28,331 nt of DNA from a bacterium (GTDB lineage: Bacteria > CLD3 > SB21): the NCBI GenBank assembly GCA_013360215.1, contig JABWCP010000035.1, positions 1-28,331 of the forward strand. The letters are read 5' to 3'. Positions 628 through 22,474 of this stretch are shown piece after piece (within the stretch, counting starts at the first letter, position 1; the number at the start of each line of letters is the position of its first letter). Made by a program: the position numbers and the translations under genes. The notes under the pieces are model-generated. The model ran no database searches. It saw only the letters and a program-made list of their open reading frames with translations, and had not been told where the DNA came from.

Positions 628-659
628 TATTTTACTTCTTTTGAAGGAGTTCGTAAAAA

Positions 660-1226
660 ATGGATAAAATAAAACAAATTACAATAGCAAGCGGAGGAGT
701 TATTGCGACATCATTTCTACCCTTGTACCTATACGCATTAAGAATCGAATATAACATACAAGTTAATGTAGCGTTGTCGCCGGAGGCATTAAATTTTGTT
801 ACACTTCCTTCGATGCGTGCTATTAGCGGTGGTGTAGTGTATACTAAAAATGTGCAATTTGATTCAAATAACTTGCCTTTACACATTACACTATCACAAT
901 CCGATTTGTTAATATTATATCCAGCCTCAGCAAGAATAATAGCGCAATGTGCTACCGGCGAAATTAATTGTTGTGTTACAAGATTATTTGCATTTACACC
1001 TAAAGAAAAAATTATAATATGTCCGATATTGCACCCACAAATGGAGCGTCAATTATATCAACCGCATATAACAAAGCTTGAATCTTTGGGTTGTAAAATT
1101 ATAGGTTCAATCGAAGAAGCTCCGAATTGGGTACAAATTCAGAATTTTTTTATAAAAAAGTTACGACTAAAAGCAAGAGATGGAAATTTAAGAAGCCATT
1201 TACTGTCTTCGTTAATTATGGGATAA
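660..1226 (+). CDS. HFCD-family flavoprotein resembling EpiD/LanD peptidyl-cysteine decarboxylases
   Basis: This 188-residue protein has the layout of homo-oligomeric FMN-containing Cys decarboxylases (EpiD/MrsD, Dfp, DmrB). Seen: an N-terminal beta strand with SGGVIA (residues 11-16), the likely active-site His75 in HITLS, the PAS of a PASANT-type motif (residues 88-92, PASAR), and CPILHPQME (121-129) where the family has PxMNxxM, followed by a KLESLG segment. The length equals that of LanD enzymes and is much shorter than bifunctional CoaBC. Oddities: the Asn of PASANT is Arg, and the Asn of PxMNxxM is His. These residues matter for substrate handling in EpiD, so oxidative decarboxylation of Cys is a hypothesis only. 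The start is supported by AAGGAG ten bases upstream. The 3' end overlaps the facing MfnF-like gene by 15 bases. A DmrB-like flavin reductase is an alternative. Confidence 0.75.
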   Translation: MDKIKQITIASGGVIATSFLPLYLYALRIEYNIQVNVALSPEALNFVTLPSMRAISGGVVYTKNVQFDSNNLPLHITLSQSDLLILYPASARIIAQCATGEINCCVTRLFAFTPKEKIIICPILHPQMERQLYQPHITKLESLGCKIIGSIEEAPNWVQIQNFFIKKLRLKARDGNLRSHLLSSLIMG

Positions 1227-2330
1227 TACGGGCGGTAATCTTCGTTTTAGAAATAGCTCAGTGGCTTTGTGGCAAGCACCATAAGCTGAACTCATAATAG
1301 CCATTTCTTCGCTTATTAAGAGTTTAGCGATATGGATATTTTCTTTTTTTATGCCTGTTTTCATTAATGCCGGCATACATAGTGTCTCCCCTCCCAAGCC
1401 AAAAACAATAGCCTGTTTGCATTTACTAAAACCTTTTTTTGCCTTTCTGATCTCCACACTAAGTAGATCAATAGCCGCAACATAAAATTGGTTAGCAATA
1501 TCCTGCCACTCTTTTGTGGAAAAGAAAGTGGAATCCATATCTATGGTATCCGCTATAGCTCTTATAGCATCTTTTTTGGAACCTAAAGCTCCAAATAGGG
1601 ATAACTGATTGCTTAATTCGGTTGAAAGAAGTTCCAATAATGTGGAAATGGATTGAAACGTAACACCTCTTGGAATTACGTGAAATTTATTACCTTTAAT
1701 TCTAACTTCTTTTAGAAGATACTCCAAAGGAGTGGTTTGAGTGCCAATCCATATCAGTCGTCCCGATTGAATTCTCTTGTAATGAGTTTGTGAAACTTTA
1801 GAATCGGGGGGGATGATTTTTCCGTTAATCAGTTGAAAAACTGCAGTGGTCGATCCGCCCATATCTAACACGAGACCGCTGAAAAAGGGAGGGGTTAGGC
1901 GTTTTGCCAAATGAGCGGTACCGACCGAATTTGTGAAGAAGAAATTCTGAAGACTATCGTCGGATAGAGAACTGATTCTGGAAGTTAGAACAACTGATGT
2001 ATCTTGTGTAAAAAGATACGTGTTAGTCTTAGGCAAAAGAGCTTTTAAAACTGACGCTGTATGTTTAACGCCTTCTGAAAATGTCTGATACGAATAGCCT
2101 GAGCTTATTCCTGCGACTAAACTACATATCTTTTTTTGGTAGCCGACTCCTATGTTATCAATCAGTAGATTTCGAATATATCGTTCGAAATTAGACGACC
2201 GATCATATTTTGTAAACCCTGTATGATCAATATTGCAAGTGCACCACTTTATTTGTCGGGACTCACAATCATAAATAAAAACCTTGATTTTGCTGTTGCC
2301 GATATCTAGTCCGATGCATTTATTGCCCAT
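1212..2330 (-). CDS. ASKHA-fold protein resembling MfnF / H4MPT-linked C1-transfer family or hydantoinase A
   Basis: This 372-residue soluble protein has the two phosphate-binding loops of the ASKHA (acetate/sugar kinase, Hsp70, actin) fold: GLDIGNSKIKV (residues 7-17) and LVLDMGGSTTAVF (153-165). An adenosine-site-like segment, VFGLGGETLCMP, is at 309-320. The stretch GRLIWIGTQTTPLEYLL (190-206) resembles the GELVYTGV-RTP segment that I recall from the MfnF/'H4MPT-linked C1 transfer' family. MfnF makes a C-N bond during methanofuran synthesis; that activity is not implied here, because no other methanofuran or H4MPT genes are present. The gene is the last of a three-gene operon, ten bases after the Cys-terminated peptide. 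No strong Shine-Dalgarno site is seen, so it may be translated by coupling. An ATP-dependent role on the peptide or on a small molecule joined to it is inference. Confidence 0.6.
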   Translation of the reverse strand: MGNKCIGLDIGNSKIKVFIYDCESRQIKWCTCNIDHTGFTKYDRSSNFERYIRNLLIDNIGVGYQKKICSLVAGISSGYSYQTFSEGVKHTASVLKALLPKTNTYLFTQDTSVVLTSRISSLSDDSLQNFFFTNSVGTAHLAKRLTPPFFSGLVLDMGGSTTAVFQLINGKIIPPDSKVSQTHYKRIQSGRLIWIGTQTTPLEYLLKEVRIKGNKFHVIPRGVTFQSISTLLELLSTELSNQLSLFGALGSKKDAIRAIADTIDMDSTFFSTKEWQDIANQFYVAAIDLLSVEIRKAKKGFSKCKQAIVFGLGGETLCMPALMKTGIKKENIHIAKLLISEEMAIMSSAYGACHKATELFLKRRLPPVLSHN

Positions 2331-2340
2331 ATTATAGCTA

Positions 2341-2568
2341 TTAGCATCCTACACCACCAGCAGAATCCAAAAGTTCTAGCACACCAAAATTACTTGCAAA
2401 AAGTAAAAAAGAGCTTTGGGTCATAGTCTTAAATAGTTCGGCTTGTTGCGTTGTTATTTTCACCCCTTTTTTATGGGCAGCTTTTTCAGGGTGAGACAAT
2501 AGAAGAGTACGAAATTTATCATCGGAAACAGCGCAATTAAGAAGATCGGATAAATTATTTTTTTTCAT
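2341..2568 (-). CDS. 75-residue putative RiPP precursor peptide with C-terminal Cys
   Basis: This small peptide starts at MKKNNLSDLL and ends in GGVGC. The start at 2568 is set by a perfect GGAGG five bases upstream; a longer reading from 2646 has no such site and would lie wholly inside the deoxyribosyltransferase-like gene. Residues 6-48 look like a helical leader (FRTLLLSHPEKA, then a Gly and TTQQAELFKTM). That pattern is shared with nitrile-hydratase-like and Franean1_4349-type RiPP precursors and related small proteins. Residues 51-75 form a hydrophobic stretch (SSFLLFASNFGVLELL), then DSAGGVGC. Only two Cys are present, Cys12 and the terminal Cys75. The terminal Cys beside an EpiD-like flavoprotein gene suggests C-terminal modification. 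The start overlaps the end of the upstream gene by 14 bases. No protease or dedicated exporter gene lies next to it. Precursor status is inferred. Confidence 0.6.
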   Translation of the reverse strand: MKKNNLSDLLNCAVSDDKFRTLLLSHPEKAAHKKGVKITTQQAELFKTMTQSSFLLFASNFGVLELLDSAGGVGC

Positions 2569-3091
2569 AAGTCCTCCATGATAATGGATTGAGGTTAAGA
2601 GATTGTGTAAGAAAAGATTTTTGAATAATTTTATCGTAGATCTCAAAAATTTTATCAGTCAAATCATGAGAATCATTCGTAAATAGTATAGGAATTGTAG
2701 TAAGCATGGTATCCCTTAGTGCTGCATCATAGATTGCTTTATCTAAACAAAGTAATCCATTTAAATTACCTTTAACCATCCAGTTTTGGAAAAAACGACA
2801 ATTTGCCTGAACAATTCCAATCAATGGTTTGTTTCTAGCTGCATACCAACCTGCTTCACTTGCGCAATCGATTCCAAAGGCATCTAATAGGATAATACCT
2901 GCGTCGGAGTTCTCCATTTCACTAATACATTGTTCATAAATTTTCTTGGGAAACTGAGAATGGGGTATATCTGGAAAGGTGAATTCTTGAGGAAGAATCA
3001 GTGATATTCGTTTCTCATCCAACTTTGATTTAAAATGAGAATTTATAGGCGCGTTTATGATACTTGCTGACAGGTATAAATTTAGTTTCAT
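2555..3091 (-). CDS. Nucleoside 2-deoxyribosyltransferase-like protein
   Basis: This 178-residue protein resembles the nucleoside 2-deoxyribosyltransferase family, enzymes that cleave or exchange the N-glycosidic bond of (deoxy)nucleosides or nucleotides. Seen: an N-terminal strand LYLSASI (residues 5-11), a conserved-type Asp63 and Asp70 in SDAGIILLD, and the segment GIDCASEAGWYAARNKP (73-89). The last matches the family's D-G-T-x-x-E-x-G-x-A pattern, with Glu79 the expected nucleophile. The rest is less conserved. It is the first gene of the minus-strand operon, with a promoter at 3150-3178, and its last codons overlap the start of the peptide gene. In other systems such folds hydrolyse CMP-type nucleotides (MilB, BlsM) or act as deoxyribosyltransferases. 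A role in making or removing a nucleoside on the peptide is speculative. Confidence 0.65.
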   Translation of the reverse strand: MKLNLYLSASIINAPINSHFKSKLDEKRISLILPQEFTFPDIPHSQFPKKIYEQCISEMENSDAGIILLDAFGIDCASEAGWYAARNKPLIGIVQANCRFFQNWMVKGNLNGLLCLDKAIYDAALRDTMLTTIPILFTNDSHDLTDKIFEIYDKIIQKSFLTQSLNLNPLSWRTYEKK

Positions 3092-3149
3092 TCTGTTTGT
3101 ATAAGTTGAGAAACTTAGAGCTTATAAAACATATATATATGTAATAAAG

Positions 3150-3178
3150 AATGTAATGTCATGTTGCTCTTTTGTCAA
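3150..3178 (-). promoter_or_regulatory. Sigma-70-like promoter of the peptide operon
   Basis: On the minus strand, TTGACA (3178-3173) is followed by exactly 17 bases and TACATT (3155-3150), a very good -35/-10 pair. A start near 3143 would give a leader of about 50 bases. A 14-base perfect AT palindrome, ACATATATATATGT (3129-3142), falls at or just after that start and might be an operator or simply AT-rich initial sequence. The nearest downstream gene on this strand is the deoxyribosyltransferase-like gene starting at 3091. Confidence 0.6.
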
Positions 3179-3307
3179 CAAAAAAACACATGTATACCAA
3201 TTGCTTATTTCAATAAATCAATGAAGATTAAAATTTTCAAAATCCCTTGCGAAGCGGGCTATTTCTTTTAAATTAAAATCATAACACTTACGGTTCCTCA
3301 CGGGTAT

Positions 3308-5050
3308 ATGATCAAAATTTATGAAAGCCTGCAGGATTTGCAGGTCAAAATAGACGAAACGTTCAAAGAGCTATCGCAGGGATTTAATAAAGTCAACGGC
3401 GCGATCACGCAAAAAAACCTTCCCGCCGCCGAATCCGCACTCAATGATCTTTTTAAAGCGTTTATGTCGCGTACCCGTGCGATAAACGCCCAGTCGGCGT
3501 CGGTCGGCGCGGACATCAAAAAAATAGAATCCCAGTGCGCTGAAATATCCGCCGAAAAAGAACAATTCAAAGCGTTGTATAATTCCGGCATCGCGATGAC
3601 GACGCAAGGCGAATTGCAGGGACTGATCACATTTGCGATGGATCAGATGACCTATCATCTTCGCGCGGAACGTGGTTTTCTGATTTTGGTGGATGAGCAC
3701 GGAGAACGCGAATACTTTGTCAGTAAAAATTTTGACGGACAAAATATAGACGACCCGGCCGCCGAAGTGAGCACCAGCGTAATTCAAAAAACATTGGATG
3801 CGTTACAACCGATCAAGGTGGACGACGATACACTATCCGAGAGCATCATGAAACAAGGTAGTTTTGTGCGCCTCGGGCTTCGTGCCGTGATGTCGGTGCC
3901 GATCATTTTCAGGAAAAAATTACTCGGTGTGGTCTATCTTGACCGGCGGGAAGAAACCAAAGGTTTTTCGGATAACGACTTGGCTTTTCTGATGGCATTT
4001 TCCCGGCAGATTGCTTTTCGGGTTAATGAACTCAAGGAACAACAGCATGTTCATACCGAATACGAACGCCGTGATCGCAATCGCTTACAATCGTTGCGAG
4101 AAAAATATAATTTTTCAGAAATCATCGGCAAAAGCGAACGGTTGGTCAAAGTACTTGAATTGGCCGGTAAGGTAGCATCTTCTGAGGTTACTGTTTTGAT
4201 CCAAGGCGAGAGCGGTACGGGTAAAGAATTGATCGCCCGTGCCATTCATTTTAACAGCGACCGGTACGAACATAAATTCATAGCTATCAATTGTGGTGCG
4301 ATTCCTTCGGAACTTCTCGAATCGGAATTATTCGGATACGAATCGGGTGCATTTACCGGTGCCGTCAAAACCAAAATTGGAAAATTTGAAGCGGCGCATC
4401 GCGGAACCTTGTTTTTGGATGAAGTAGCCGAGTTGTCTATGAACCTTCAGGCCAAAATTTTACGTGTTCTGCAAACCAAAGAACTCGAACGTCTTGGCAG
4501 TACGGAAACGCGCAAAATCGACCTGCGCATTATATCGGCCAGCAATAAAAACCTCCAGCAGATGGTGCGGGAAGGTAAATTTCGTGAAGATTTATATTAC
4601 CGTCTCAAAGTCGTAGAGATCGAATTACCGGCGTTACGAGAACGGAAGGAAGATATTCATCTTCTGGTTAGTTTTTTTGTTCAGAAATACGGCGAACAAC
4701 GGATTCAGTCGGTCAGCGAAGATGCGATGGATATTTTAGAAAACTACGCATGGCACGGCAATATCCGTGAATTGGAAAATGTCATTCAACGTGCGATCAT
4801 TCTTTCGTCCGGCGCGCAGATCGAAGTGCAGGATTTACCTCCGGAGATTGTTTCCAAAACGGAAAGCGGATATAAGGTAGACAAAGATTTGTCGCTCGAA
4901 GACGCGGAAACGGATTTTCGGCGATGGTTCGTGTTACGCGCACTGCGGAAAAGTAACAACAATAAATCCAAAGCCGCTGAAATGCTTGGCATCAACCGCA
5001 CCCACTTTTTTCGTATGCTCAATCAACTGGGCATATCCGACTCAGAATAG
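3308..5050 (+). CDS. Sigma-54-dependent transcriptional activator (GAF-AAA+-Fis HTH)
   Basis: This 580-residue bacterial enhancer-binding protein opens promoter complexes of RNA polymerase-sigma-54 using ATP. Domains seen: an N-terminal helical stretch (1-85, probably coiled coil), a GAF sensor domain (about 90-240), and a central AAA+ domain (about 270-495). The AAA+ domain has Walker A GESGTGKE (300-307), the sigma-54 contact loop GAFTGA (347-352), Walker B TLFLDE (367-372) and arginine-finger region FREDLYYRL (425-433). A Fis-type helix-turn-helix (about 550-575) has the typical SKAAEMLGINRTHFFR. All catalytic motifs are intact. No receiver domain is present, so the input is probably a ligand, redox or protein signal sensed by GAF. 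A strong -24/-12 promoter lies 150 bases downstream, an obvious candidate target. There is no clear Shine-Dalgarno site before the ATG. Confidence 0.95.
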   Translation: MIKIYESLQDLQVKIDETFKELSQGFNKVNGAITQKNLPAAESALNDLFKAFMSRTRAINAQSASVGADIKKIESQCAEISAEKEQFKALYNSGIAMTTQGELQGLITFAMDQMTYHLRAERGFLILVDEHGEREYFVSKNFDGQNIDDPAAEVSTSVIQKTLDALQPIKVDDDTLSESIMKQGSFVRLGLRAVMSVPIIFRKKLLGVVYLDRREETKGFSDNDLAFLMAFSRQIAFRVNELKEQQHVHTEYERRDRNRLQSLREKYNFSEIIGKSERLVKVLELAGKVASSEVTVLIQGESGTGKELIARAIHFNSDRYEHKFIAINCGAIPSELLESELFGYESGAFTGAVKTKIGKFEAAHRGTLFLDEVAELSMNLQAKILRVLQTKELERLGSTETRKIDLRIISASNKNLQQMVREGKFREDLYYRLKVVEIELPALRERKEDIHLLVSFFVQKYGEQRIQSVSEDAMDILENYAWHGNIRELENVIQRAIILSSGAQIEVQDLPPEIVSKTESGYKVDKDLSLEDAETDFRRWFVLRALRKSNNNKSKAAEMLGINRTHFFRMLNQLGISDSE

Positions 5051-5133
5051 CTCTGTTATAGCTCTCTCTTTCCCTTCCCAAGCCCCATTTCTGAAATCGC
5101 GTAGCATTTTTGCGACCATTTACACATTTCGGT

Positions 5134-5172
5134 CTGTCGTATTATTGTAACACATTTTACGATTTATGACAG
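5134..5172. promoter_or_regulatory. Candidate upstream activator site (imperfect inverted repeat)
   Basis: CTGTCGTA (5134-5141) and TACGATTTATGACAG (5158-5172) contain inverted elements CTGTC/GACAG and TCGTA/TACGA with unequal spacing. They lie 30-70 bases upstream of the -24/-12 promoter, where a sigma-54 activator could bind. The symmetry is weak, so this is only a candidate. Confidence 0.25.
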
Positions 5173-5201
5173 CGTGAGGTTGATTTTTTTAATGTTAATT
5201 T

Positions 5202-5218
5202 TTGGCACAGCAATTGAT
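5202..5218 (+). promoter_or_regulatory. Sigma-54 (-24/-12) promoter
   Basis: The sequence TTGGCACAGCAATTGAT fits the consensus YTGGCAC-N5-TTGCW: the -24 element is exact, the spacer is five bases, and the -12 element reads TTGA rather than TTGC. Transcription would start near 5229, just before the GTG start at 5251. A gene for a sigma-54 activator ends 150 bases upstream, which supports the call. Confidence 0.7.
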
Positions 5219-5250
5219 AAACCTACAATACCATTATCAGGGATTTCATA

Positions 5251-5460
5251 GTGAAAAAAAAGGTTCTCATTTTTAATCAAGACATTGATGAATTATCAGC
5301 TATACGCCAGGTATTGGTTCGGGAAGGGTATGAAGCGATAACGGCATCCAACTGGGATACGGCGACTAAACTTTTCGCCAGCCTTGAGATTGACTATGTG
5401 CTTATGAATGGTAAATCCGGCGATATTCAGCGCGTTTTACAAAGCGCACTCAAGATGTGA
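5251..5460 (+). CDS. Short receiver-like protein lacking the phospho-acceptor Asp
   Basis: This 69-residue protein starts at a GTG codon. Its N-terminal half reads like a response-regulator receiver domain: KKVLIFNQDIDELSAIRQVLVREGYEA, then DTATKLFASLEIDYVLMNGKSG. In a normal receiver the acidic pair would be where NQD sits, and the acceptor Asp would sit in DYVLMN, where an Asn is found. The domain stops after strand 3 and lacks the Thr/Lys half, so it cannot be a functional phosphorelay receiver. It is either a decayed remnant or a small protein that binds a partner as a receiver mimic. Its own sigma-54 promoter and strong terminator argue for expression as a single-gene unit of about 310 bases. 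The RNA itself might also matter. Confidence 0.6.
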   Translation: MKKKVLIFNQDIDELSAIRQVLVREGYEAITASNWDTATKLFASLEIDYVLMNGKSGDIQRVLQSALKM

Positions 5461-5506
5461 TCAAGTATTCGTACTGCAGCTTTAAAAAGTTGCTCGTGCG
5501 TGAGGA

Positions 5507-5538
5507 CCGCGCGGTTCTAATGGCCGCGCGGATTTTTT
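5507..5538 (+). terminator. Rho-independent terminator of the short receiver-like gene
   Basis: Arms CCGCGCGG (5507-5514) and CCGCGCGG (5524-5531) can pair around a nine-base loop, followed by ATTTTTT. The stem is eight G-C pairs. Confidence 0.85.
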
Positions 5539-5626
5539 GAAAAGTATGTTGGATATCATAGACAAACGTAAAGCCGTAAGGTAAATTTCGATCATAAGTA
5601 ATCATTAAAATCAATGGGAGGATTTT

Positions 5627-6451
5627 ATGAAACATCTAATGACAGGGGCTTGTATTTTGGTGTTGGTTGCGTTGACTTCATGTGGTGGTGATGATGCCGC
5701 CAAACCGGAAGAATTCGGAACGCAGGAAGAAGCCCTCACGGCTCTGAATGCAAATAAATCGAATATGTTGCTGGCTTTGGATGCCGCGGAAGGAGCAATT
5801 GATGCGGCTTCAGGTTTTGGATTAGACAAACGTTCCGCGTATAATTCCAAGAAACTTAACCGTGCAATGACTTATACGTACGACGCATCTACGGGTTGGT
5901 GGACGGACGAGTATACCAATTCATCCGGCGGGTATAATTATGATTACACATGGAACATTCGTTTTACACCACGCGATGCTAATGGGTATTCGACGGATGA
6001 AACTTCAAAAATGGAATATAAATACGATTATCTTTATAACGGGGCAAACACATATTATTCATATGACATGGATCTGGGTGCCGATATGACGTTGACGGGC
6101 GTCAATGCGTATCGTGCAGCGACCGGAAATCTTGTATTAAATGGTACGAATGCAATCAGTTATGTTTGGGATTATTCGTACCTCACGTATGATTACACGT
6201 ATGATTATAGTCATAAATATACCTATAAGTCTCTAGAGATATCACCCGATGGTGACTATCCTGAAGGCGGTTCGGTCAGTTTCACCATTCGTTCCAAGTT
6301 TGAAGGTGAGATAGGTGAAGAAGGTGGTGATGCATTGAATTATTATGTCGCCGGAAAGATAACGTTCGACGGAGACAATACGGCGCTGCTCGAATTCGGC
6401 GGTTTTTCTTTTATTCTTAATTTGGATACCAATGAAGTAACACCGGCATAA
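5627..6451 (+). CDS. Tyr-rich lipoprotein of unknown function, copy 1
   Basis: A 274-residue lipoprotein. A Lys-containing N-terminus and hydrophobic run lead to a lipobox LTSC with the lipidated Cys at residue 19, followed by GGDD. No Asp directly follows the Cys, so outer-membrane sorting is likely if the cell is Gram-negative. The mature part has a helical Ala-rich region (about 30-75), then a beta-rich, Tyr/Asp-rich region with NRAMTYTYDASTGWW, RFTPRDANG and KMEYKYD. It ends with KITFDGDNTALLEFGGFSF. I do not recognise the family. The alternating aromatic pattern suggests a beta-barrel or lipocalin-like fold on the cell surface (inference). It is a paralog of the next gene, with the same length and layout. 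GGGAGG seven bases before the ATG fixes the start. Confidence 0.85.
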   Translation: MKHLMTGACILVLVALTSCGGDDAAKPEEFGTQEEALTALNANKSNMLLALDAAEGAIDAASGFGLDKRSAYNSKKLNRAMTYTYDASTGWWTDEYTNSSGGYNYDYTWNIRFTPRDANGYSTDETSKMEYKYDYLYNGANTYYSYDMDLGADMTLTGVNAYRAATGNLVLNGTNAISYVWDYSYLTYDYTYDYSHKYTYKSLEISPDGDYPEGGSVSFTIRSKFEGEIGEEGGDALNYYVAGKITFDGDNTALLEFGGFSFILNLDTNEVTPA

Positions 6452-6480
6452 ATTTCCCCTTTCTTATTGGATTACAACCA

Positions 6481-6518
6481 AACCGCTTCGGTTCGTCATA
6501 GAGCCGGGCGGTTTTTTT
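6481..6518 (+). terminator. Rho-independent terminator after lipoprotein copy 1
   Basis: AACCGC-TT-CGGTTC pairs with GAGCCG-G-GCGGTT around a short loop, followed by seven T. The same element, nearly base for base, follows copy 2. Confidence 0.85.
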
Positions 6519-6593
6519 ATGTAGATTTTTATTGGCTTCAGGCAACTCTTATCGTACCTTGCCCATATAGCCATAAAAACAAGGGAGGTAATT

Positions 6594-7418
6594 ATGAAAA
6601 AAGTAATGCGATTTTTGGTAGTAGCCATGAGTACGTTCATGACCTCGTGCGGAGGTGATGATGAACTCAAACCTGAAAAATTTGCAACCCAGGAAGAAGC
6701 CATGACGGCTTTTTCCAACAATCAATATAACATGCAAGATGCTTATCATAGCGTGGGTGATGCGATTGATTATACAGGCGGTGTGAGTGTGGGTGCGGTT
6801 AAAACCGAAAAAAAGAAAAAAACGAACCGTGCCATGACGTGGGCATATGACGCGTCAACCGGTTGGTGGTCTGATGCAAATCAATATAGCGGCGAAGGCT
6901 ATAATGAAAGTTATGAGTGGAAAATAAGATACTCTCCTCGCGACGCCAATGGTCAACCGACCGAAACTACGGATAAAATGGAGTATAAATATGATGTGGA
7001 CTTAGAGTCCGGCACATCCGGTAATATGCTAGAACTTTCGACGGATCAAGATATAACGCTAACCAATATTGATGAATTTAATGCCGAAACCGGTAATCTG
7101 ATTATCAATGGCTCAAATAATTTGTCTTGGAAGATGGCTTATGCGTACGAATTGTATTCGTATTCATACGAATACGTTCACAAATATAAATACAATTCGA
7201 TCGCCGCATCCCCGACCGATTCGTATCCGCAAAGCGGTTCGGTTAGTTTTACAATCAAATCGAATTTTGAAGGAGATGGGGTAGAAGGTGATCCGGAAGC
7301 TCTTAATTACTACATCGAAGCTAAAATCACTTTTGATGGTGATAACACGGCGATATTAGAATTTGGCGGATACAGTTTTACGCTCAATTTGGATAGCTTT
7401 TCGATAACGCCGATCTGA
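6594..7418 (+). CDS. Tyr-rich lipoprotein of unknown function, copy 2
   Basis: A 274-residue paralog of the preceding lipoprotein. The signal peptide ends in a MTSC lipobox with Cys19, again followed by GGDD. Shared blocks: the KPEKFATQEEAMTAF region near residue 27, NRAMTWAYDASTGWW, the SPRDANG and KMEYKYD blocks, the SGSVSFTIKSNFEG-like block, and KITFDGDNTAILEFGGYSF near the end. The middle diverges more, including a charged KTEKKKK stretch at about 65-71 that copy 1 lacks. An excellent AAGGGAGG site precedes the ATG. Because copy 1 ends in a terminator, this copy must have its own promoter in 6519-6593, so the two may be expressed differently. Function unknown. Confidence 0.85.
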   Translation: MKKVMRFLVVAMSTFMTSCGGDDELKPEKFATQEEAMTAFSNNQYNMQDAYHSVGDAIDYTGGVSVGAVKTEKKKKTNRAMTWAYDASTGWWSDANQYSGEGYNESYEWKIRYSPRDANGQPTETTDKMEYKYDVDLESGTSGNMLELSTDQDITLTNIDEFNAETGNLIINGSNNLSWKMAYAYELYSYSYEYVHKYKYNSIAASPTDSYPQSGSVSFTIKSNFEGDGVEGDPEALNYYIEAKITFDGDNTAILEFGGYSFTLNLDSFSITPI

Positions 7419-7442
7419 TTTGGATTTCATATTTTTTCGATT

Positions 7443-7478
7443 AACCGCTTCGGTTCGCACAGAGCCGGGCGGTTTTTT
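7443..7478 (+). terminator. Rho-independent terminator after lipoprotein copy 2
   Basis: AACCGCTTCGGTTC pairs with GAGCCGGGCGGTT around a four- to five-base loop, followed by six T. It differs from the 6481-6518 element mainly in the loop. Confidence 0.85.
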
Positions 7479-7501
7479 ATTTTGTATCAAAGAATCATGA
7501 G

Positions 7502-7519
7502 ATGTAGTAGATTCTACAT
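7502..7519. repeat. Short inverted repeat upstream of the amidohydrolase gene
   Basis: ATGTAG (7502-7507) and CTACAT (7514-7519) are separated by six bases, 30 bases upstream of the amidohydrolase start. This could be an operator or be chance. Confidence 0.25.
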
Positions 7520-7548
7520 TTTGAGAGAAAAACGGAGATCGGCGTTTT

Positions 7549-8769
7549 ATGCGTTTATTTTTGTCTGACTGGGTCTTACCCGTGGTGTCCCCACCGATTC
7601 GCTATGGCGGCGTTGTTACAGATCAAGGAAAAATAATCGCCGTAGGTGAAGCTTCTACACTTCAAGATAAATTTCCTTCCATCGAAGTCGAACGGATGAC
7701 AAATACGGTAATCATGCCGGGTTTGGTCAATTCGCACACCCACATCGAACTGTCAATGATGAAAGACGCCATTCCTGATGGACTTCCTTTTGCTGAATGG
7801 GTGTACCGTGCTATCACGGGACGTTTTACTTATACAACTGAAGCTATTCGGGATGCAGCATCGCTAGCTGTACAAAGTATGATCCAAAACGGCACTGTGG
7901 CTGTAGGCGATATCGCCAATAATTCCGATATTTCACAACCGCTTTTAGAAAACTCCACGATGTGGGCTGTTATCTTTCACGAAGCAACGGGGTTTCAGTC
8001 GGCTGTAGCACAGGAAAAATTTACCGAATTTTCCCGTAAAGCATGGCAGCCCGGCACAGAACGCGTGCGTCATGCGTTGGCCCCGCATGCGCCATACTCA
8101 GTATCACGCGCACTATTTTCCGAAATTCGCGCATTCAATCGTAGCGGCCGTCTGACAACGATGCATTTGGCAGAATCGCACGATGAGGTGGTCTTTATAC
8201 GAACCGGCGAGGGTCCGATGCGGGAAATGATCGAAAAACTCGGGCGGTGGGATGATACGTGGGAAGCGCCCAAAACCACACCTGTAAAATACGCCCACGC
8301 TTTGGGTATGCTGATGCCGGGTATGCTGGCTGTGCATGTAGTGCACACGGATGATGAAGATATTCAACTGATGAAACAATATCACATCTCGGTATGCACA
8401 TGCCCGCGAAGCAATGTAAAAATCAATGTCGGCGGAACGGCGCCGATCAGAAAATATCTCGATGCGGGAATCAATGTATGCATCGGCACGGACAGTTTGG
8501 CAAGTAATGATGATCTGGATGTGTGGAACGAAATGCATGCTTTGCAAAAACAGCATGCCTCTGTGAAACCAGAAGAAATAGTTCGTATCGCTACGTTCAA
8601 CGGCGCCAAAGCCCTAAGTCTTGATAATGTGATCGGCACGATCGAAACCGGGAAAGCCGACGCCCTCATTGCGGTGACTTCACGCGAATCCGTGTCGGAA
8701 CCGTACGGTTTCCTGACCGGCGGAAAATCGACGTTTGACTCAGTACGACCGTTGTTCGCCCATTCTTGA
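7549..8769 (+). CDS. Metal-dependent amidohydrolase, candidate aminofutalosine deaminase
   Basis: This 406-residue enzyme belongs to the ATZ/TRZ/SsnA branch of the amidohydrolase superfamily, which deaminates or dechlorinates heterocycles. Metal and catalytic residues are visible: HTH at 63-65 in NSHTHIELS, His206 and Glu209 in MHLAESHDE, His263/His266 in AVHVVHTDDE, and Asp315 in GTDSLASNDD. CPRSN (285-289) is also typical. The APHAPYSVS and HLAES patterns resemble aminodeoxyfutalosine deaminases of the menaquinone futalosine pathway. The close relatives MtaD (methylthioadenosine/S-adenosylhomocysteine deaminase) and guanine deaminase remain possible. The next gene makes DAHP, the entry to chorismate, from which futalosine-route menaquinone is built; this is suggestive only. 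CGGAG upstream supports the start. No other mqn gene is in the window. Confidence 0.8.
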   Translation: MRLFLSDWVLPVVSPPIRYGGVVTDQGKIIAVGEASTLQDKFPSIEVERMTNTVIMPGLVNSHTHIELSMMKDAIPDGLPFAEWVYRAITGRFTYTTEAIRDAASLAVQSMIQNGTVAVGDIANNSDISQPLLENSTMWAVIFHEATGFQSAVAQEKFTEFSRKAWQPGTERVRHALAPHAPYSVSRALFSEIRAFNRSGRLTTMHLAESHDEVVFIRTGEGPMREMIEKLGRWDDTWEAPKTTPVKYAHALGMLMPGMLAVHVVHTDDEDIQLMKQYHISVCTCPRSNVKINVGGTAPIRKYLDAGINVCIGTDSLASNDDLDVWNEMHALQKQHASVKPEEIVRIATFNGAKALSLDNVIGTIETGKADALIAVTSRESVSEPYGFLTGGKSTFDSVRPLFAHS

Positions 8770-8820
8770 TCGGTGTATTTTTTTTGCATAGATTGTGGCA
8801 ATCGAAAGGTGATTTTATTT

Positions 8821-9840
8821 ATGATGATTGTAGTGATGCATCGCGATGCATCGGTTTCGGATATTTCGACCGTCCTGCATATTATCGAAGAGAGCGGTTG
8901 CACGGCGCATGTCAGCAAAGCGGAAGAAAAAACCGTCGTCGGTGTTGTCGGCGATGATCGCGGTATCGTGAGTGAAAAAATTCAAACCTTACAAGGGGTT
9001 GAAAAAATATTTGCGACATCTAAACCGTACAAATTGGCCAGCCGTGAGTGGAAAAAAGAAAATACGCTGGTACGTGTAGGACAGGTTACATTCGGCGGTT
9101 CGGACGTCGTACTTATCGCCGGTCCCTGCGGCGTCGAAAGCGAGCAGCAAATTTTAGAAATAGCGCAGGCCGTCAAAGAAGCCGGGGCGCACATTTTGCG
9201 CGGAGGGGCGTTTAAGCCTCGCACTTCGCCATACAGCTTCCAAGGATTAGGTGAACGCGGTCTCGAATTGCTTGCTTTGGCGCGCGAAAAAACCGGTATG
9301 CCGATTGTGACTGAAGTGGTGACGCCCAATCAGGTCGAACTTGTCGCTAAATATGCCGATATGCTGCAGATCGGCGCACGCAATTCGCTTAATTATTCAC
9401 TTCTGCAAGAAGTCGGCAAAACTAATAAGCCTGTATTGCTCAAACGCGGCATGATGTCGCATCTGGAAGAATATATGATGTCGGCCGAATACATTTTAGC
9501 CAACGGTAATTATAACGTAGTATTGTGTGAACGCGGAATTCGTACGTTTGAAACGTCCACACGCAATACGATGGATATTGCTGCGATTCCCGTGCTTAAG
9601 TCGTGGACGCATCTTCCGGTGATAGCCGATCCGAGTCATGCCACCGGCAAACGTTCGCTGGTACAACCGGTAGCCAAAGCGGCCGTCGCCGCCGGTGCGG
9701 ACGGCCTCATGATCGAGGTGCACCATCATCCTGAACATGCCTTATCGGACGGTCCGCAAGCCGTACTGCCTGATGAATACGCCGCATTGGTTCGCCAATT
9801 GCGACAAATCAGTTCTGTACTCGGACGCTCGATCGCCTAA
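8821..9840 (+). CDS. aroF: 3-deoxy-7-phosphoheptulonate (DAHP) synthase, type I-beta
   Basis: Condenses phosphoenolpyruvate with erythrose 4-phosphate, the first step of the shikimate pathway. From this start the protein has 339 residues: an N-terminal ferredoxin-like domain (about 1-70) as in Thermotoga-type I-beta enzymes, then the TIM barrel. Seen: GPCGVES (101-107), [16 protein letters not shown] (127-142), [20 protein letters not shown], and [11 protein letters not shown] with a metal-ligand His, and the C-terminal [15 protein letters not shown]. The N-terminal domain may give feedback control by aromatic amino acids, as known for the family. The reading frame is open back to 8773, but AAAGGTG about ten bases before the ATG at 8821 and the start of similarity there make that the better start. 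It lies 51 bases after the amidohydrolase gene. Confidence 0.93.
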
Positions 9841-20105: not shown

Positions 20106-20720
20106 TTATTTAAGTTCTGACAAAATAAGTTTTTTCTGTTTAAATGTATTTCTCATTGCCTTTTCTCTTATTTTAGGATCTTCGCTGTTAATAAGATCAA
20201 AATATTCCACGGGTACTACCTGCCACGATAAACCGTATTTGTCTTTGCACCAGCCGCAAGATCCTTCTTCTCCGCCGTTGGTAGTCAACGCATTCCAATA
20301 ATAATCTACTTCGGCTTGGTCTTTGCAATTGATAACGAATGAAACCGATTCGTTAAACTTAAAGTATGGGCCTGCGGCTAAAATACTAAATTCTATATCA
20401 CCAATTTCCATAATCGCAGTTTCGAAACCGTCTTGCCCGCCTGGCACATTTTCTTGCGGCGGATTCTTATATTGCCGATAGTCTTTCATTTTGCCGTCTT
20501 TGAAAATGGAAAGGTAATAATCGACAACGGCTTTTGCGTCTTTATCAACCCAAAGGCAAGGTGTTATTTTTTGTGTTTTCATAGAGTGTTCGCTTGTTAA
20601 AATTTTGTTATCAGCGGAATCAATTTTACTTATAGGACTTGAATTCGGTTGCGGATTTCCGCAACTCAGGGTATTAACAATTAATAAAGCAATCCCAATT
20701 TTAAGTCCATGCTTTTTCAT
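20106..20720 (-). CDS. PhnB-like VOC-fold protein carrying a lipoprotein signal
   Basis: This 204-residue protein has an N-terminal signal peptide with lipobox TLSC (Cys20), a linker rich in Pro/Ser/Asn, and from residue 47 (MKTQKITPCLWVDKDAKAV) a complete PhnB/3-demethylubiquinone-methyltransferase-like glyoxalase-fold domain. This domain is normally cytoplasmic and often found beside AHSA1/ArsR genes. Blocks seen: YYLSIFKDGK, IEFSILAAGP, FVINCKDQAEVDYYWNAL, GEEGSCGWCKDKYGLSWQVVP. Ordinary members begin where residue 47 begins, so the signal is an added 46 residues. It starts five bases after the AHSA1 stop and is the last gene of the five-gene operon. If the signal works, the domain is displayed outside the cytoplasm; an alternative start at 20582 would give the cytoplasmic form. 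Confidence 0.82.
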   Translation of the reverse strand: MKKHGLKIGIALLIVNTLSCGNPQPNSSPISKIDSADNKILTSEHSMKTQKITPCLWVDKDAKAVVDYYLSIFKDGKMKDYRQYKNPPQENVPGGQDGFETAIMEIGDIEFSILAAGPYFKFNESVSFVINCKDQAEVDYYWNALTTNGGEEGSCGWCKDKYGLSWQVVPVEYFDLINSEDPKIREKAMRNTFKQKKLILSELK

Positions 20721-20725
20721 ATACG

Positions 20726-21220
20726 TTATTTTTTTAAATTTGATAATAAGTTTGATAATTCGTTTAATGTCATAGTGAAACCTTCTTTGAAGCCCATCTC
20801 TATCATTTGTTCCATGCGTTCGAGCGAATCGTTTTGAATTGTAATGCTGACTTTGGTTGTTTCTTTATTTTCGCTGAAATTCAAATTCCAATTTGAGCCC
20901 GGCAAAAAAGAGTTTTCATCTTTATCTGCAAAAACACTGAAAAACTTGAAATTGGTTTTGGGGCTAATGGAAGTATAATCCTGAATATGCCAGTTTTCTT
21001 GTCCTTCCGGGCTTACCATAGCATAAAATCGGCGCCCTCCTACTTTGAAGTTCATATACTTTGTTTTTGAAGCGTAAGGTTTCGGCGCCCACCATTGGTC
21101 AAGAATTTCTTTCTTTGTAAAGGCGTCCCAAACAAGTGAAAGCTCAGCATCAAATTCTTTTTCCACGAATACAGTTTTGGTTGATTTGTCAACCTTAAAG
21201 TCAAATTGCAAATTATTCAT
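20726..21220 (-). CDS. SRPBCC/AHSA1-domain protein 1
   Basis: This 164-residue START-like domain protein of the AHSA1 group forms a hydrophobic pocket and is small, soluble and cytoplasmic. Typical blocks: [56 protein letters not shown], and the closing [21 protein letters not shown]. Paralog of the gene at 21534. Its ATG overlaps the ArsR stop by four bases (ATGA), so translation is coupled. In many bacteria ArsR-AHSA1 pairs occur together; a ligand has rarely been found, and none can be assigned here. Confidence 0.9.
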
Positions 21221-21537
21221 TTTCTTTTCCTTTTCATGGTTGAGAGTAGATTATCAAGTTGACTAAACCGGCTTTCCCATATTTTTCGATATTGTTCCAG
21301 CCAATCGTCAATTTCTTTCATTTTTTCGATTTCCAAAGAGTAGAAAATTTCTCTTCCTTTGTATTCTTGTTTTACCAGTTCGCATTCGGTTAATATCCGC
21401 AGGTGTTTGGAAACGGCCTGGCGTGTCGAATTAAAATTTTCCGCAATAGCATTGGGTGTCATCGCTTGCAGCGCGATGAGGCCGATGATGGCTCTTCGGG
21501 TCGGGTCGGCAATAGCCTGAAATACATCGCGTCTCAT
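21217..21537 (-). CDS. ArsR-family winged-helix repressor
   Basis: A 106-residue regulator. Seen: [17 protein letters not shown] at the N-terminus, a recognition helix region [20 protein letters not shown] (residues 36-55), and the wing [12 protein letters not shown], followed by a C-terminal dimerisation helix with a Trp-rich end. No metal-binding CxC motif is present, so it belongs to the non-metal subgroup that accompanies AHSA1 proteins. It overlaps both neighbours by four bases (ATGA at 21534-21537 and 21217-21220). It probably represses its own operon through the GCAAC-N6-GTTGC element at 22475-22490. Confidence 0.92.
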
Positions 21538-22031
21538 AGGTTTTTCTTATTCATTAATTGAGTTAATTGTTCGAGGCACAGAGTAATACCTTGTTCGAAG
21601 CCCATTTCAACCAGTTTATGAATGTCCGCTTCGGAGGCATAGGTGGTTTTGAACTCGACTTTGGTTCCGCTTTCCGTTTTAGTGAAAGCGATTCTTCCTT
21701 TTGAAATGGGAAGTTCGCCATTCAAATTACCATTTTCATCGCAAAAAAAGTCTTCCATGTCAATGAAGTGGTGAAGATCAATCGAAATATAATTCATGCG
21801 CCCCCAATGCTTCTGATTGTCGGGGCCTACCATGGCATACAGCCAATACCCTCCGGGTTTAAAAAGCATTGTTTTGGTTTCGGCTCTCCATGGAGAAGGT
21901 CCCCACCACTGATCCAATAATTCTTTCTCTGAAAAGGCGCGCCAGACATTAGGTAATGGGGCATTAAATTCTTTTGTTACGAGGATGAATTTTTCTTTCA
22001 GGTTTTTAATTACGTTGACAGGATTACTCAT
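21534..22031 (-). CDS. SRPBCC/AHSA1-domain protein 2
   Basis: This 165-residue START-like protein is a paralog of the AHSA1 protein at 20726. Shared blocks: [74 protein letters not shown]. It differs from its paralog in the middle ([18 protein letters not shown]). The ribosome site GGGAG nine bases before the ATG is the strongest of this operon. It lies 34 bases after the DoxX-like gene. The cavity-forming fold is known; the ligand is not. Confidence 0.9.
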
Positions 22032-22065
22032 AATTACTCCCGGGTTTCTTCGTTGTGAATAAAAA

Positions 22066-22449
22066 TTACTTAATCATGGCTATGTATTTTTCGCGGTTAT
22101 CGTAAATAATAAAGAGGTTGATCGTTAACAATAGAAGCGCGATCGGTAATCCGGAAGGCGCCACGGTAATGTGTGTCATTACAATGCCGATCATCACGGG
22201 GAAAATAATGATAGCGCCGAGCGGCCTGAATTTTGAAATGATAAAAAGAATTCCTCCTATGATTTCAGCCGTAGCCACAAGGGGTAAAAGCCATCCGATT
22301 TCCAAAAACGCGGCAGACTGTTTTACCATCTTTTCAGGTAAATCGGGTGGAACGGGTATGTAATTGAGAAATTTATTCAGCCCGGCGTTGATAAACATCA
22401 ACCCGAACAAGAGACAAACCGCAAAAAATACTTTTGACCTCATATACAT
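22066..22449 (-). CDS. DoxX-like four-helix membrane protein
   Basis: About 127 residues with four membrane segments: an N-terminal segment with the VCLLFGLMFINAGLNKF motif, a central segment LLPLVATAEIIGGILFI, then LGAIIIFPVMIGIVM and LPIALLLLTINLFIIY. The NAGLNKF motif and loop spacing are typical of the DoxX/DoxD-like superfamily, which often sits in small stress operons. The reading frame extends to a TTG at 22467, but ATG codons at 22449 and 22443 are better starts; I chose 22449. First gene of the operon, 25 bases after the putative operator. Function unclear. Confidence 0.8.
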   Translation of the reverse strand: MYMRSKVFFAVCLLFGLMFINAGLNKFLNYIPVPPDLPEKMVKQSAAFLEIGWLLPLVATAEIIGGILFIISKFRPLGAIIIFPVMIGIVMTHITVAPSGLPIALLLLTINLFIIYDNREKYIAMIK

Positions 22450-22474
22450 GCTTTCACGTGTGTACAAAAAACGT

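Follow-up and report, generated by a model that had tools for sequence, protein, structure and literature searches.

The biosynthesis of thioamitides, kintamdin and class Va lanthipeptides involves an HFCD flavoprotein that modifies the terminal Cys of the precursor; kinase-fold partners help to guard the resulting enethiol or to close it into a ring (PMC9415263, PMC12291118). The locus compared with these systems here lies in a window of 28,331 bp, the entire contig C35 of a 3.72-Mb genome. The host lineage is thinly sampled, and the genomes for comparison include only eight from its own family or class. An earlier note on this DNA placed four small genes in the window and read them as a possible RiPP pathway. 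All four are intact ORFs at the positions it gave (660-3091), one on the plus strand and three on the minus strand:

628..3307: AT-rich extent of the cassette; the Ser/Thr kinase gene ends at 627 and the sigma-54 activator gene starts at 3308
643-649, plus strand: ribosome-binding site GAAGGAG of the HFCD gene
660..1226, plus strand: HFCD flavoprotein (PF02441), 188 aa
1212..2330, minus strand: ASKHA-fold protein, remote MfnF/TIGR03123 homologue, 372 aa
2341..2568, minus strand: candidate precursor peptide, MKKNN...LLDSAGGVGC, 75 aa from the ATG
2555..3091, minus strand: nucleoside deoxyribosyltransferase-like (NDT-like) protein (PF05014), 178 aa
2573..2577, minus strand: ribosome-binding site GGAGG of the peptide gene, within the end of the NDT-like gene
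3150..3178, minus strand: promoter-like TTGACA-17-TACATT, upstream of the three minus-strand genes (consensus match only)

The minus-strand genes are transcribed in the order NDT-like, peptide, ASKHA. The peptide gene begins inside the NDT-like gene, sharing 14 bp with it; the GGAGG stands four bases 5' of the peptide ATG, and a gap of 10 bp separates the end of the peptide gene from the start of the ASKHA gene. The HFCD gene, on the strand opposite to the other three, is arranged tail to tail with the ASKHA gene, their 3' ends overlapping by 15 bp, and may be read together with the upstream kinase gene. Shuffled versions of the region contain promoter-like sites such as TTGACA-17-TACATT just as often.

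The G+C content of the cassette is 35.6%, against 45.8% elsewhere. Three of five same-family genomes (L071, L073, L075) lack the cassette at this point: a kinase gene of the same kind directly precedes the sigma-54 gene there, at a distance of about 100 bp. The sigma-54 activator orthologues share 62-69% identity, and the kinases only 38-41%, a level at which their orthology is likely rather than proven. The four genes are best seen as a single insertion in the host genome, and the cassette looks like a recently inserted, horizontally acquired element. A second block of lower G+C (33-42%) is present in the window at 20106-22467, consisting of four small PhnB-, AHSA1- and DoxX-type-looking genes; the three that were tested have no NCBIfam match. 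The window also contains tandem paralogous putative lipoproteins of 274 aa at 5627-6451 and 6594-7418 (SCGGDD..KPE.F.TQEEA), the first of them without an NCBIfam match.

The 75-residue peptide ending in GGVGC, described as such in the earlier note, is a real ORF with a strong ribosome-binding site. Residues 6-60 match the NCBIfam model NF038399 (Os1348/Os17, NHLP clan) with an E-value of 2.1e-9 and 37.3 bits, so that a leader recognisable as that of a RiPP is present at a score just below the curated cut-off of 40 bits. Weaker matches extend to TIGR04509, TIGR03793 and PF14407 (NHLP and Frankia peptide models). Together with the ribosome-binding site, this leader match, which the earlier note had missed, makes the assignment of the peptide as a candidate precursor more than a guess. 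Residues 61-75, FGVLELLDSAGGVGC, fall outside the NF038399 model and terminate in SAGGVGC. A C-terminal Cys is found in just one of 288 long ORFs from the fetched loci, and a Cys-terminated peptide beside an HFCD gene is therefore not expected by chance. The NHLP-clan match is not proof of a RiPP precursor, since Os1348 folds as a stable dimer in the crystal and may function as a whole protein (PMC7726476). Peptides of the Os1348 type are encoded in 34 of the 386 genomes searched, counting the window's own; in the loci read, none of them shares the C-terminal end or lies beside HFCD, ASKHA or NDT-like genes. Beyond this leader family, no homologue of the peptide was found in the 386 genomes.

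The HFCD call made from the open reading frame is confirmed by PF02441 (E 3e-8, above cut-off). The best solved relative is TvaF of the thioviridamide system (6jls, E 6e-8), followed by CoaBC (2e-5) and CypD (2e-3). As in a peptidyl-cysteine decarboxylase, HFCD family membership is combined with a catalytic His, His75, which is conserved together with Met128 across 21 of 21 compared HFCDs. The PXMNXXMW motif expected of such an enzyme reads PILHPQME, its Asn replaced by His, and PASANT reads PASARI. Oxidative decarboxylation by AtHal3a requires His90, Asn142 and Met145, and the subsequent reduction requires Cys175 (PMC9604783). The Asn-to-His change need not be fatal, because it is also seen in 3 of the 21 HFCDs, including one CoaC encoded beside CoaB. 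The CoaC flap LACGxxGxGR, carrier of the reducing Cys, is absent from the HFCD sequence, which fits an enzyme whose reaction ends at the enethiol.

In the tree, the HFCD is placed with TvaF (99/79) outside the CoaC/CoaBC rows (93/96), at a point where long branches meet: TvaF is included only as a fragment, the end branch of the HFCD is very long, and the alternative is not rejected (AU p 0.196). Among the NCBIfam models, none of which comes near its cut-off, CoaBC (51 bits) scores above CypD (34 bits), and the best matches of the HFCD in other genomes are CoaC/CoaBC, with identities up to about 36%. On balance, the comparison leans towards a protein closer to TvaF than to CoaBC, but on a long branch and with an uncertain placement. 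The host genome encodes a second HFCD on contig C19, a CoaBC-sized ORF, which indicates that the cassette HFCD is an extra gene and not the housekeeping enzyme.

Where stand-alone HFCD genes in other genomes were examined, they proved to be CoaC, with CoaB or a similar gene next to them. On the Pseudomonas sp. K-62 plasmid pMR68 (L082, NC_019309.1, 7998-9890), a 178-aa flavoprotein without a CoaB domain or flap motif is encoded behind a mercury-resistance operon and adjoins a hypothetical protein, possibly ATP-grasp-like. In the tree, this flavoprotein branches apart from the CoaC rows, as do the cassette HFCD and TvaF. It was rejected as a relative of the cassette because its neighbours are not ASKHA-like and the mercury operon is adjacent.

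The resemblance of the ASKHA protein to MfnF stands as a remote match, with scores far below the cut-offs of both models (TIGR03123, E 6e-18, 65.1 of 244.1 bits; NF040623 for MfnF, E 1e-15, 57.6 of 520 bits). Aligned with 34 MfnF-family proteins over nearly its full length, it shows about 24% identity, and when it is included in a profile, that profile finds 3c0b, an archaeal structure of the MfnF family. The phosphate motifs DIGNSKIK and DMGGSTT are present, and the nucleotide-site residues Asp9, Gly11, Lys16, Asp156, Gly158, Thr161 and others are kept. The MfnF motif TxTxELxD is missing, along with Asp163, Asp183, Glu191, Tyr194, Arg199 and more. With these MfnF-invariant residues lost, the protein is, on the evidence of its residues, an ATP-type ASKHA protein and not MfnF. 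MfnF consequently does not serve as a guide to function, as the substrate motif is missing and the bond type was misstated: MfnF was said to make C-N bonds but forms an ether bond (PMC11365854), and its NCBIfam product name says phenoxymethyl.

The deoxyribosyltransferase-like call is upheld, the protein matching PF05014 (E 1e-8) with 35.6 bits against a gathering cut-off of 28.8. Its Glu79, within DCASEAGW, occupies the expected position of the catalytic Glu of PF05014.

Co-occurrence of the genes in other genomes, whose absence the earlier note named as a refuting condition, did not emerge: no second cluster was found among 386 genomes searched by sequence, among 84,980 species scanned with a single ASKHA motif, or among plasmids and phages. 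Conservation thus lends the RiPP reading no support, and within the reach of the motif used, a precursor and enzymes kept together across genomes were not seen. The motif, a degenerate DNA pattern for ASKHA residues 186-202, was designed to skip normal MfnF, and drifted relatives would escape it; its 21 matches in the 84,980 species are all MfnF variants or chance, with no relative among them. No ASKHA relative beyond ordinary MfnF was found in the 386 genomes across the domain or in 397 around another centre, no NDT-like relative was found in the 386, and plasmids and phages yielded no cassette relatives apart from CoaBC-like HFCDs. Viral scans with ASKHA, NDT and HFCD motifs gave no match, nor did those with two alignments holding artificial decoy rows for motif steering. 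A single-sequence ASKHA scan of genome contigs likewise gave no match, its patterns being uninformative. A weak match in G121 was discarded because it crossed the artificial junction within the concatenated query. In the literature, no described system with this gene set was found. The cassette is real, coherent and unusual, but a singleton.

No leader peptidase, exporter, dehydratase or cyclase is recognisable in the cassette. The one clear C39 exporter of the genome sits away from it, in a grasp-with-spasm RiPP locus (L110, G000:C18:1-14000, 2199-9242). This locus consists of an ATP-grasp maturase (TIGR04192), a SPASM partner (TIGR04193), the C39 peptidase/ABC exporter (best TIGR03796, under cut-off) and an HlyD-like protein. 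Two similar secreted-looking proteins are encoded at 636-1958 and 4453-5754 of L110.

We hold the chances to be evenly balanced that the cassette is an orphan minimal RiPP-like pathway whose flavoprotein acts on the terminal Cys. The earlier proposal of a RiPP pathway working at the C-terminus gains from the NHLP-clan leader, the terminal Cys and the TvaF-nearest flavoprotein, and loses from the lack of conservation and the failed MfnF clue. The packing of the three minus-strand genes, with their overlap and 10-bp gap, counts in favour of a pathway. AlphaFold single-sequence models have a mean pLDDT near 35 and are useless here. In the proposed pathway, the 75-aa NHLP-clan peptide would be the scaffold, mostly leader, with the last 15 or so residues as substrate. 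The HFCD would bind FMN and oxidatively decarboxylate the C-terminal Cys75 to an enethiol (-46 Da), then halt without reducing the product, a stop that we propose from the absence of the CoaC flap. The unstable enethiol would subsequently be capped or cross-linked. As the cassette has no kinase-fold partner, lyase or cyclase, only the ASKHA and NDT-like proteins come into question for handling the enethiol. The former would supply an ATP-using step, and the latter would act through glycosyl or nucleoside chemistry, for example by S-glycosylating the enethiol via an NDT glycosyl-enzyme. We infer that the peptide is the HFCD substrate and that its Cys is decarboxylated; what happens to the enethiol afterwards, be it capping, phosphorylation, glycosylation or ring closure, is a guess, as is the sequence of the steps. 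The bolder version, a new RiPP class in which the ASKHA and NDT-like proteins would conjugate the HFCD enethiol on an NHLP-clan scaffold with ATP and a sugar or nucleoside donor and so yield a peptide-nucleoside or S-glycosyl enethiol, seems unlikely.

The ATP motifs kept in the ASKHA protein also suit an AviCys-type route, in which this protein would act as a kinase phosphorylating Ser69 or an upstream Thr/Ser, elimination would leave a dehydro residue, and the Cys75 enethiol would close the ring, much as in class Va lanthipeptides but with the ASKHA kinase replacing LanK/LanX. Candidate residues precede Cys75 (Ser69, and Thr/Ser at 48, 50, 52, 53 and 59), and class Va and thioamitide pathways pair an HFCD with kinase-fold partners. 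The route nevertheless finds no lyase or cyclase candidate in the cassette and leaves the NDT-like protein without a role, and ASKHA homologues of this branch are not known as protein kinases. We judge it decidedly improbable; the LanK/LanY dehydration pair and LanX, by which class Va would be recognised, are not among the cassette genes.

Alternatively, the peptide could be the carrier of a small-molecule pathway, its terminal residue being modified and released as a modified cysteine or nucleoside conjugate, much as 3-thiaglutamate is built on TglA. The very short segment after the GG (VGC), the small-molecule enzyme types to which the MfnF-like and NDT-like proteins belong, and the scaffold precedent of TglA (PMC9016710) accord with such a pathway, to which the cassette, having neither a peptide aminoacyl-tRNA ligase nor a peptidase, gives us reason to assign only a slim probability. 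The crystal dimer of Os1348 points in another direction, to a locus with no peptide pathway at all. In that case the peptide would form an Os1348-like helical dimer, and the enzymes would have unrelated tasks in cofactor or nucleotide metabolism or in defence, joined by the insertion of foreign DNA. An AT-rich, inserted cassette and a gene set not conserved elsewhere agree with this. The tight overlapping order of three genes and the Cys-terminated peptide beside the HFCD gene argue against it, and PADLOC returned no defence match of note for the cassette; we consider it unlikely.

If the orphan RiPP-like pathway exists, its significance lies in the fate of the enethiol. In the compared RiPP systems, the HFCD enethiol enters a ring with a dehydrated residue, and a cassette without a dehydratase or cyclase would point to a different fate. 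To our knowledge, an MfnF-type ASKHA protein would here also be seen for the first time in a setting other than the synthesis of C1 cofactors. The four-gene cassette is small enough to be tested whole in E. coli.

In conclusion, the cassette shares features with several described systems and departs from each of them. The HFCD has its family, His75 and Met128 in common with CoaC/CoaBC, but it is without the LACGxxGxGR flap and has no CoaB domain or neighbour. With MfnF (NF040623, 3c0b/3cet), the ASKHA protein has the family and the nucleotide-binding residues in common, but it is without most of the residues conserved in 90% of MfnF proteins and without the ATP-grasp and amino acid kinase genes that accompany MfnF. 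The leader family of the peptide is shared with the Os1348 cluster of Pseudomonas sp. Os17 (NF038399), which, unlike the cassette, begins with an acetyltransferase and adjoins efflux genes (PMC7726476). Like the thioamitide, kintamdin and class Va systems (TvaF/TvaE, KinI/KinH, RosD/RosX), the cassette joins a TvaF-related HFCD to a Cys-terminated precursor and few enzymes. It differs from those systems in its NHLP-clan leader and in having ASKHA and NDT-like proteins but no APH-like kinase, lyase, LanX cyclase, YcaO or exporter.
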